DNA of 32,906 bases from Dehalococcoidia bacterium (lineage in GTDB: Bacteria > Chloroflexota > Dehalococcoidia > DSTF01 > JACRBR01), in the NCBI GenBank assembly GCA_021731085.1, contig JAKFYB010000007.1, positions 1 through 32,906 of the forward strand. The letters are read 5' to 3'. Made by a program: the position numbers and the translations under genes. Under the pieces are notes generated by a model that was given only the letters and a program-made list of their open reading frames with translations, was not told the origin of the DNA and did not search any database. Of this stretch, positions 999 to 28,131 are shown in pieces. Position 1 is the stretch's first letter. Each line of letters opens with the position of its first letter.

Positions 999-1268
999 TC
1001 AGTGCATCGCCCACTGCTGCGACAACCGGTCGAAGTACACGGTCGCCGGGCGGCCGTCATCCAGGAGTAGCTCGAAGTACTCGCGCGAGACGGGCTCGTC
1101 CGTCCACCAGCGGTCTTCGGTGCGCCAGCGATCCTGCACCTGCGCGACGACGCGCCACAGGCCGCGATGGTACACGCGGCGCGGCGTGCCGTACGCGTCC
1201 GCCTCCACCCGCAGCTGCTGCGGCGCGCTTAAGCGTCGGACGACGTCTAAGCGTCGGTCGGCGCTCAC
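999..1268 (-). CDS. DUF6504-like small protein coupled to the ImuB-like gene
   Basis: This 89-residue protein starts at GTG 1268 inside the stop of the upstream ImuB-like gene (a GTGA overlap), so translation is probably coupled. The body reads VYHRGLWRVVAQVQDRW, then a WWTDEP segment, YFELLLDDGRPATVYFD and QQWAMH. This matches my memory of the DUF6504 family, small proteins or domains found beside Y-family polymerases in actinobacteria and relatives. The function is unknown; position suggests a role in translesion synthesis. An ATG at 1316 in the same frame would give 105 residues and a 52-nt overlap and cannot be excluded. A short direct repeat, TAAGCGTCGG, lies near the 5' end (about 1229-1258). 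Confidence 0.62.
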   Translation of the reverse strand: MSADRRLDVVRRLSAPQQLRVEADAYGTPRRVYHRGLWRVVAQVQDRWRTEDRWWTDEPVSREYFELLLDDGRPATVYFDRLSQQWAMH

Positions 1269-2608
1269 GCGTCGTACGGTATGAGAATCGCCCGGTCCTC
1301 TGGATGCCGTGAGCATGGGTCCACCTCCACTGCGCGCCACACCATCGGCCCGCCGAAGCGTGCGCGCATCTCCTGTACCGCCTCGAGCAGACGCTCGAGC
1401 TGCGGATTCGTCTCCGTGATCAACTTGCCCTGCTTGCCCGGCTCGCGCACGATCTCGCTCAGCGTGATCGACACCGTGTCGACCGCCTCCGTGAGCTGCA
1501 GCGACTCCAGCCGCGTCTTCAGCAGCGTCATCATGCGTGTCTCGTCGGCCGTTGCGTCGCGGAACGTCTCGATGCGGTCCCACACCAGGCGCCCTTCCGC
1601 CAGCACCTGCGCGTGCATCTTTCGCGCAGCGCGATGGTCGAGCCGCACAGCCAGACGCCGCACGACCTGCCGCGCCGCCATCACCAGCGCTTCGCTCGTC
1701 ACCACCGGCGACTCGAACGTCAGGCGCTCGCTGATCGCTTCCGGCGTGCGTTGCGGGACGAGCGGCTCGTCGTCGATGCCGCGCGCGAGATCCCACATGC
1801 GCCCGCCGATCGAGCGGAACTGCGCCTCCACCGCCGTCCGGGGCAGCGCCGCCACCTCGCCCAGCGTGTGCAGCGAGAGCGAACGCAGCCGCACCGCCAC
1901 CTCCGGCTCGAACGGCAGCAGCCCCACCGACGCATCGCGCAGAAACCGCCGCTCGTCGCCCTCCGAGATCACCGTCACCACGCCCGGCGCCGACAACAGC
2001 GCACCGACGCGCGCGACAAACTTCCCGCTCGCGATCGCGACGGACGGCGTGAGGCCGGTGGCGTCGCGGACGGCGTCGATGAGAGCGCGGCCGATGAGGT
2101 CGGAGGTTGTCGCTGGTCGGTTGTCGCTGGTCGCTGGTCGCTGGTCGCCAGTTGTAGAGGCCGACCTATGTGTCGGCCCATCGTCGATGCGATCACTGAG
2201 ACACCGAGACTCTGAGACACTGACGCACTGCGCGTAGAGCCGTTCCATCCCGCCGACGCCGACGTACGCACACCCCTCACCCACAGGCTCCACCTCCGGC
2301 GCGACGGTCTCGAGCGCGCGGAGCATGACGGCGGCGGCCTCGGCGTAACGCGCCGGGTCGGCGGGGATGTAGGTGGCGTGCGGGAAGTGGGCACGCGCCT
2401 TGCGGAGCGCGAGTCCGGGCCAGACATCCATGAGTTCGGGCGAGGCCTCGAGGACGCGGTTCTTGAGGTAGACGATCGTTGGGCGCTGGTGATTGGTGAT
2501 TGGTGATTGGTGATGTGGCACAGCCGCCCTCGGCTGTGAGCCGCCGACTAGCCGCCCACGCTCGACGGCGAGGGGGAATCTGGGGATGAAAACACACGCC
2601 AGACGCAT
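1265..2608 (-). CDS. ImuB-like Y-family DNA polymerase homologue, probably catalytically inactive
   Basis: This 447-residue protein has the Y-family fold. The N-terminus MRLACVFIPRFPLAVE stands where active polymerases carry the first metal-binding Asp, and EPVGEGCAYVGVGGMERLY replaces the SxDE palm motif. The catalytic acids are therefore missing, as in ImuB, the adaptor of the mutasome. Little-finger features follow (SIGGRMWDLARGIDDEPLVP and the region after it). AGGAG sits 6 nt before ATG 2608, and the promoter spacer carries a LexA-type box, so SOS control is likely. No imuA or dnaE2 is in view. Two low-complexity inserts (about residues 24-43 and 128-168) are encoded by palindromes and 7- or 8-bp tandem repeats. 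Alternatively it is another inactive Y-family branch. Confidence 0.8.
   Translation of the reverse strand: MRLACVFIPRFPLAVERGRLVGGSQPRAAVPHHQSPITNHQRPTIVYLKNRVLEASPELMDVWPGLALRKARAHFPHATYIPADPARYAEAAAVMLRALETVAPEVEPVGEGCAYVGVGGMERLYAQCVSVSESRCLSDRIDDGPTHRSASTTGDQRPATSDNRPATTSDLIGRALIDAVRDATGLTPSVAIASGKFVARVGALLSAPGVVTVISEGDERRFLRDASVGLLPFEPEVAVRLRSLSLHTLGEVAALPRTAVEAQFRSIGGRMWDLARGIDDEPLVPQRTPEAISERLTFESPVVTSEALVMAARQVVRRLAVRLDHRAARKMHAQVLAEGRLVWDRIETFRDATADETRMMTLLKTRLESLQLTEAVDTVSITLSEIVREPGKQGKLITETNPQLERLLEAVQEMRARFGGPMVWRAVEVDPCSRHPEDRAILIPYDA
2105..2153. repeat. Heptamer array (GCTGGTC/GGTTGTC) inside the ImuB-like gene
   Basis: Seven consecutive 7-bp units run ggttgtc, gctggtc, ggttgtc, gctggtc x3, gccagtt. 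The array lies in the coding region and is read in frame on the minus strand as a hydrophilic stretch (DQRPATSDNRPATTSD). An inverted repeat GGCCGAC/GTCGGCC with a 6-nt loop follows at 2159-2178. Confidence 0.85.
2194..2230. repeat. Octamer array (CACTGAGA-like) inside the ImuB-like gene
   Basis: Four 8-bp units (cactgaga, caccgaga, ctctgaga, cactgacg) and a partial fifth follow one another. They are read in frame on the minus strand as QCVSVSESRCLSD. Together with 2105-2178 they make up one insert of about 40 codons. Confidence 0.75.
2486..2538. repeat. Heptamer array (TTGGTGA) plus hairpin inside the ImuB-like gene
   Basis: Four units (ctggtga, then ttggtga x3) occupy 2486-2513 and encode HHQSPITNHQ on the minus strand. 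An 8-bp perfect stem, CACAGCCG/CGGCTGTG, with loop CCCT follows at 2519-2538. The pair forms an insert close to the N-terminus. Confidence 0.8.
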
Positions 2609-13088: not shown

Positions 13089-14168
13089 ATGGCCGGCGAA
13101 CGGGAACGTCCTGAAGACCGACTCGAAGAACTCTTGTCTGCCCCCAACACGGGCGAGACAGGTGCGCCGCGCGCGAATGAAACGGGCGAACTTTCCACCT
13201 TGCGCGACGTAGCAGGAGACATGCGCGATGCGCGCGCGTCCATCCCGCCGTCGAAAGGCGCCGGGGCGTTCGCCGCGATGATGAATCAACTGGAGACGGC
13301 ACGAATGAGTGAGGAGACAGGCGGGTTTGGGGAAGTGATCGCGGGATGGTGGAAGCGGCCGGTGCTGCGAACGGGCGCGGCGGTTACGGCAGCCGTCCTC
13401 GTGCTTGGTGGCGCGAGCCTCGGCGTGGCTGCGGCGACGGGCAACGAACCAGTACGCAATCTTTTCGGCATCTCGTCCAACTCGACGATCAAGGTTGAGC
13501 TCACCGGCACGGTGGTCTCCGTAAACGGCCCCGTCGTCGAGGTCAGCGCAAACGGCGACATACGCGTTGTCGTCATCGACGAGAACACTGATCTGACGTC
13601 CGGCGGGGACGATGACACACCGCTGCCTCTCGACGGCATCCTGGTCGGCCAGGTCGTCGAAGTGCACGGACGGTTGCAACCAGACAATTCGATCCTGGCG
13701 ACACGCTTCCACCTCGAAGACGGCGATGATGGCATCGGCGGCACGCCAACGGCCGGCGCTCCCACGCAGGCCGTACCGACGGCCGACGCCACCTCCGGAG
13801 TCCCCACCGTCGTGAACCCGACAGTTGGCGTGCCGACGGTCGGCAGCACCCCGTCCGCAGGCCCCACGGTTGACGACCATGGCGGTGACCGCGACGACGA
13901 TGATGATGACGACAACAGCGGTTCCGGCAGCGGGGACGATGACGGCGACGACGACAACAGCGGCTCCGGCAGCGGCGATGACGACGGCGACGACGACAAC
14001 AGCGGCTCCGGTAGCGGCGACGATGACGGCGACGACGACAACAGCGGCTCCGGTAGCGGCGATGACGACGGCGACGACGACAACAGCGGCTCCGGCAGCG
14101 GCGATGACGACGGCGACGACGACAACAGCGGCTCCGGTAGCGGCGACGATGACGGCGACGACGACTAA
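13089..14168 (+). CDS. Membrane-anchored DUF5666 protein with Asp/Ser/Gly repeat tail (putative sigma partner)
   Basis: The 359-residue protein has a cytoplasmic N-terminus (1-90), one membrane segment (about 92-117) and an outside DUF5666-like beta domain (about 136-211: VELTGTVVSVNGPVVEV, GQVVEVHGRLQPDNSILATR). A Pro/Thr/Val linker follows, then six copies of a 14-residue unit, DNSGSGSGDDDGDD. The very acidic tail could bind calcium or hold the domain away from the cell. GGAGGAAGG precedes ATG 13089, 3 nt behind the sigma gene, so it is probably an anti-sigma-like or co-regulated partner. Its N-terminus lacks an obvious zinc anti-sigma motif. The DUF assignment is from memory. Confidence 0.75.
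   Translation: MAGERERPEDRLEELLSAPNTGETGAPRANETGELSTLRDVAGDMRDARASIPPSKGAGAFAAMMNQLETARMSEETGGFGEVIAGWWKRPVLRTGAAVTAAVLVLGGASLGVAAATGNEPVRNLFGISSNSTIKVELTGTVVSVNGPVVEVSANGDIRVVVIDENTDLTSGGDDDTPLPLDGILVGQVVEVHGRLQPDNSILATRFHLEDGDDGIGGTPTAGAPTQAVPTADATSGVPTVVNPTVGVPTVGSTPSAGPTVDDHGGDRDDDDDDDNSGSGSGDDDGDDDNSGSGSGDDDGDDDNSGSGSGDDDGDDDNSGSGSGDDDGDDDNSGSGSGDDDGDDDNSGSGSGDDDGDDD
13911..14162 (+). repeat. Six 42-bp tandem repeats in coding sequence
   Basis: Six consecutive 42-bp units start at 13911, 13953, 13995, 14037, 14079 and 14121. They differ mainly at synonymous third positions (GGC/GGT, GAC/GAT), so the protein unit is kept exactly. The unit is a multiple of three, so copy number can change without a frameshift. 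Confidence 0.93.
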
Positions 14169-22506: not shown

Positions 22507-22513
22507 GGGGGTA

Positions 22514-22548
22514 GGTTACAGGTGACGGGTTACAGGTGACAGGTAACG
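22514..22548. repeat. Heptamer array (GGTTACA/GGTGACA) before the ureohydrolase
   Basis: Five 7-bp units (ggttaca, ggtgacg, ggttaca, ggtgaca, ggtaacg) fill the gap before the ureohydrolase start. Two 8-bp units (gtcagtgt, gtcagtca) follow at 22555-22570, the reverse strand of the octamers at 2194-2230. Confidence 0.82.
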
Positions 22549-22563
22549 AGTTGGGTCAGTGTG

Positions 22564-24779: not shown

Positions 24780-28131
<3,352 letters not shown>

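Follow-up and report, generated by a model that had tools for sequence, protein, structure and literature searches.

The window analysed here, i.e., the whole stretch of 32,906 nucleotides, corresponds to positions 1-32906 of contig JAKFYB010000007.1 in the draft genome of a Dehalococcoidia bacterium (3.58 Mb in 52 contigs, 96.6% complete), and its features are collected in Table 1. Its minus strand carries an ImuB-like ORF that matched the Pfam family IMS at 3.5e-9 and in which, according to alignment to solved DNA polymerase IV structures, the catalytic DEAYLD has become EGCAYV, DE being replaced by EG. This replacement is as expected for an ImuB-like, inactive Y-family protein; a Y-family fold with lost catalytic acids is also the feature it shares with ImuB, the inactive Y-family polymerase of the mutasome. 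A preliminary description of this DNA had stated that tandem repeats and small palindromes interrupt the gene in two blocks and that the frame stays open despite them. Both statements were borne out, as two such blocks (here A and B) were located and the frame is uninterrupted over 447 aa. It had also been pointed out correctly that a 7-bp unit is not a multiple of three, and the ImuB frame is shifted when one or two units are gained or lost.

Table 1. Features of the ImuB-like gene and of the other heptamer-bearing sites in the window, with positions, strand and supporting evidence.
Feature	Position	Strand	Evidence
ImuB-like ORF, 447 aa, carrying blocks A and B	1265..2608	-	Pfam IMS 3.5e-9; alignment to Pol IV structures
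Heptamer array, GCTGGTC with GGTTGTC variants	2105..2151	+	
Block B, net gain of about 123 nt (ends accurate to a few nt), missing in relatives	2109..2231	.	Protein alignment with 20 relatives; congener DNA
pal1, 26-bp GTAG-tagged palindrome, 40 genomic copies	2154..2179	+	Stem covariation; folding
Octamer array CACTGAGA, second occurrence at L043 14466	2194..2226	+	
Block A, extra DNA in N-terminal variable loop, older residues partly replaced	2487..2546	.	
Heptamer array TGGTGAT x4, directly adjoining pal2	2487..2514	+	
pal2, palindrome of 24 bp with GTGG tag, found about 15 times in the genome	2515..2538 (up to 2540)	+	Folding
Intergenic degenerate heptamer array, AGGTGAC/AGGTTAC/AGGTAAC	22513..22552	+	
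Two heptamer arrays, together adding about 35 aa in frame to LigA (ORF 25438-28131)	26509-26535 and 26568-26597	+	Comparison with relatives and E. coli LigA

Block B combines a heptamer array, the palindrome pal1 and an octamer array. The period of 7 bp assigned earlier to the first of these was upheld, whereas the count of seven full units was not: six units are present, two of which are GGTTGTC variants, followed by a degenerate seventh. The octamer array reported before is present and degenerate (about 3.8 units, 81% match), and the four-unit heptamer array of block A consists of four perfect TGGTGAT units. The two hairpins seen earlier correspond to pal1 and pal2, and both fold well below background as single-stranded DNA, with values of -8.0 kcal/mol (z -5.2) for pal1 and -10.1 kcal/mol (z -3.6) for pal2. 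In a protein alignment with 20 relatives (20 rows, one of which, L027, was in the wrong frame and was ignored), block B is missing in every relative aligning there, the congener included, and the residues of blocks A and B are absent in all relatives. At the DNA level the locus of block B measures 156 nt here as compared to 33 nt in the congener, which gives a net insertion of 123 nt, and alignment to solved Pol IV structures places it in the loop between a palm strand and the next helix. Block A is no clean insertion, because the congener also has extra sequence at this site, namely a different, shorter extension. The earlier expectation that both blocks would be absent in close homologues thus holds for block B, the site of which is empty in relatives, and only in part for block A.

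Both palindromes belong to families dispersed over the genome. The pal1 pattern, GTAG-GGGCSGNC-CTATGT-GNCSGCCC, was found in 40 copies as compared to 0 for the reversed control pattern; 37 of the copies are intergenic, the other three being inside called ORFs. GTAG is invariant in 19 distinct copies, in which 95.4% of the pairs of the 8-bp stem are kept and 13 double-sided changes occur, and the pairing and covariation scores were unmatched by any shuffle. The family is present in 8 of 39 relatives, with 12 copies in genome G003, and was not found in the 72% complete genome of the congener. At an acyl-CoA synthetase-like gene that contains pal1 there is no length change in comparison to the nearest relative, which implies that replacement also occurs and that simple insertion does not account for all cases. 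For pal2, the pattern GTGG-CACAGCCG-TCCC-CGGCTGTG with a stem of 7-8 bp gave about 15 genome copies, five of which are in frame within other genes; these host genes we take, from their sequences, to be GlpD-like, radical-SAM-like, phage-portal-like, MidA-like and SMP-30-like. Comparison with relatives revealed net insertion at the radical-SAM-like and MidA-like sites. The GlpD-like protein (L135 503-2188 (-), and L191) has a counterpart in the congener (G001) with a similar QPGAAV-like insert in the same place, so the pal2 insertion may predate the species or the site may have been hit repeatedly. In the phage-portal-like gene (L138 644-2113 (-)), pal2 is adjoined by a further palindrome, GTAGCGCGGGCCTTCAGCCCGCGC, both being in frame. 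A match to PF01797 (RAYT/Y1) was not found in the 96.6% complete draft genome, and in the relatives no PF01797 gene was found on the same contig as pal1. A RAYT as local mobiliser was therefore rejected, and pal1 is called REP-like with no claim of RAYT mobilisation.

The heptamer arrays were found to be a genome-wide feature as well. In 1.41 Mb, i.e., 39% of the genome, 25 period-7 arrays reached a score of at least 12 as compared to 0.2 in Markov-4 shuffles, a density that is slightly biased upward, as the sample includes a few stretches picked for a TGGTGAT or pal1 hit. The count far exceeds that of shuffled sequence; with this and with the lack of the block residues in relatives, neither of the two outcomes that the preliminary description had named as refuting was seen. 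Periods 5, 8, 9, 10 and 11 gave 0-4 arrays in the same 1.41 Mb and period 6 gave 7. Only 13 of the 25 strong arrays lie inside genes as compared to a coding fraction of 0.88 (P 1e-5, with gene calls from a simple codon-usage script and hence approximate borders), which indicates that arrays are depleted, not excluded, from coding DNA. The combination of heptamers and palindromes in frame in one gene, stressed in the earlier account, is confirmed; the heptamers, however, are not private to the ImuB-like gene but form dispersed families of which about half of the strong members are genic. When the 39 arrays with a score of at least 10 were compared, 8 fell in one heptamer class as opposed to about 0.7% expected, and 20 could be joined by one-base steps, so that few motif families are represented. 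Almost no arrays were seen in six other sampled genomes of the class, and (GACCGAC)3 with at most one mismatch was detected in 3 of 197 class genomes, all of the host's GTDB family, and additionally in the congener in a separate search.

Two further associations were considered. Of the 39 arrays, three have a pal1 copy no more than 150 bp away; since some of the sampled stretches had been taken around pal1 copies and both elements favour intergenic DNA, this comparison is biased and was not used as evidence. A preference of arrays for gene starts, hinted at by a few cases, was unsupported in the larger sample. Arrays such as ATGACCAACATCCAACATCC stand at the extreme 5' end of an SDR gene (L173 418-1368) and of a MqnC/CofH-like gene (L170 7248-8630); they may be translated there as N-terminal tails, or the true start may be located downstream of them. 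A longer tandem repeat, with 6.5 copies of a 42-bp unit (91% match) rich in GAC/GGC codons, is found at 13891-14165.

Within the window, LigA provides a second case of an in-frame insert. Its insert is missing in four relatives, and in E. coli LigA the aligned blocks are separated at this site by no more than a few residues. In the ORF (25438-28131 (+)), LigA is preceded in the same frame by a low-molecular-weight phosphatase domain (PF01451, aa 6-128), which represents either a fusion or a wrong start. By alignment, the inserts of both the ImuB-like protein and LigA are assigned to loops; predicted structures were too poor to serve as loop evidence, with a mean pLDDT of 34 for ImuB (single sequence) and of 41 for LigA (6 sequences).

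Taken together, these results make it probable that the blocks are recent, lineage-specific in-frame insertions, built from REP-like hairpins and heptamer/octamer arrays and kept in loops. This reading is based on the empty sites of the relatives, on the multicopy nature of pal1 and pal2, on arrays in excess of chance drawn from few motif families, and on the same kind of insert in LigA. Following this, we propose that the hairpins copied themselves to new sites, probably via a RAYT-type single-strand transposase that acted in trans or has since been lost, and that the arrays began from few heptamer seeds and then grew and shrank by replication slippage. The surviving copies would be those that kept the frame and fell in surface loops of the catalytically degenerate ImuB, and the inserted peptide is most likely without a specific role. 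The preliminary view of spreading or slippage-born micro-elements tolerated in loops of the protein was therefore essentially right, although GTAG/GTGG-tagged REPs fit the hairpins better than the Rickettsia palindromic elements that it had named as a parallel.

A purely local origin, in which each array and each hairpin arose in place by slippage and mutation with no spread, is unlikely. Slippage is the accepted explanation of the heptamer excess (PMC4692102), the ancestral site in the congener holds GCGGACGACCTGGCA, which resembles GACCRAC heptamers, and the octamer array is degenerate, all of which would be in line with such an origin. However, the dominance of few motif families described above argues against it, and pal1 and pal2 recur almost unchanged at dozens of unlinked places, which is impossible under local origin and renders it improbable for the hairpins already. 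As regards the arrays, the data suggest that slippage sets their length and that spread or re-seeding of few motifs contributes in addition.

A different question is raised by the genes in which the arrays occur. Since start sites are uncertain, only arrays in the interior of genes were counted and those at gene ends disregarded; in a first scan, interior in-frame arrays were detected in the genes for the ImuB-like protein, LigA (two), DnaE, PriA (two), an HhH-GPD glycosylase and a Xer-type recombinase, and, outside DNA metabolism, in Lon, PurL and a sigma-factor/zinc-finger gene. A looser scan, performed after the pattern had been noticed, brought in two more carriers, a Mur ligase gene and an HhH-GPD gene resembling endonuclease III. 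Replication, repair and recombination genes made up 7 of 11 array carriers as compared to 2 of 35 length-weighted random genes, namely LigD and an SMC-type gene (Fisher one-sided P 1.8e-4), in a small sample and for a category that was mostly post hoc, i.e., chosen after most of the data had been seen; moreover, DnaE and one glycosylase, two of the seven, share one 10-kb stretch (L220), which also holds the Lon array. Along L220 646-15179, DnaE, the HhH-GPD glycosylase, GtrA and Lon all carry arrays in a span of 15 kb, and three of these arrays belong to the TTTGCTG/TTTGCCC type. LigA and PriA of G003, a genome rich in the same heptamer with 78 exact (GACCGAC)3 hits, contain no such insert. 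A concentration of heptamer arrays in DNA replication, repair and recombination genes is thus likely but unproven. That arrays accumulate in frame specifically in DNA-metabolism genes of the host family, either as selected mutation-rate modifiers or via feedback on slippage, is a speculative and rather improbable extension. No paper on heptamers in repair genes was found in a search of the open-access literature.

The recurrence in these genes and the frame dependence of the ImuB-like gene on unit number might instead point to a functional switch, in which slippage of 7-bp units turns repair proteins off and on and produces reversible mutator states. We hold this to be very unlikely, since several of the carriers (dnaE, ligA and priA) are presumably essential genes or close to it. 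Heptamers have been tied to phase variation in other bacteria (PMC6344855); the arrays here, however, are located deep within genes, comprise a small number of units (3-5) and are often imperfect, which implies slower slippage. Likewise very unlikely is that the ImuB-like gene is a decaying pseudogene gathering repeats or that the contig is misassembled: large inserts in a gene already devoid of polymerase catalytic residues and a draft of 52 contigs would fit, but the open frame, the conserved flanks, the 76% identity to the congener over aa 170-447 and the similar in-frame inserts in ligA, dnaE and priA, which have to remain intact, speak against it.

Insertion of dispersed elements into loops, as preferred here, involves repeats of which both are known kinds. 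GTAG-tagged REPs, including GTGG variants, have been described and occur in Chloroflexi; some are in frame, two even in one ORF, many were noted in 2013 to lie in replication/repair genes including dnaE2, REPtrons may be missing, and the association with RAYTs is common, not universal (PMC3733652). With these, pal1 shares the 5' GTAG tag, the 8-bp stem and the length of 26 bp (within the ranges of 6-9 bp for stems and 20-40 bp for elements), as well as a mostly intergenic and occasionally in-frame location, and pal2 shares the GTGG variant tag, the hairpin and the multicopy state. By contrast, the copy numbers of about 40 and 15 are below the usual REP number, which is more than 100 (PMC2817692), no RAYT/Y1 gene was found in the genome, and both palindromes in the ImuB-like gene adjoin heptamer arrays. 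Rickettsia palindromic elements, as described in PMC3733652, are in-frame palindromes in protein genes like pal1 and pal2, but they belong to another phylum and RPE-1 is longer; RPE-4 and RPE-6 are grouped there with CGTC-tagged repeats, and the GTAG tag of pal1 argues against them.

Heptamers are the commonest intergenic tandem repeat in prokaryotes (PMC6344855), they are under-represented in coding DNA and slippage related to the polymerase footprint has been put forward for them (PMC4692102), and TAACTGA heptamers show a patchy spread (PMC4679880). The arrays described here share with bacterial heptameric SSRs, including cyanobacterial STRR, the period of 7, few degenerate families, dispersal, sporadic presence in taxa and depletion from coding DNA. 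They differ in their motifs, in the lack of GGG tracts in the main families, in that about half of the strong arrays are genic, and in their apparent concentration in DNA-metabolism genes. G-quadruplex heptamers of the GGGNATC kind, which need at least four GGG tracts (PMC4692102), were rejected, as TGGTGAT and GCTGGTC have GG only. REP-like hairpins and heptamers are usually called intergenic, and here they are joined in frame in one repair gene. If the bias toward DNA metabolism holds in independent genomes, two classes of micro-repeat would be linked to the very machinery that controls slippage and mutation.
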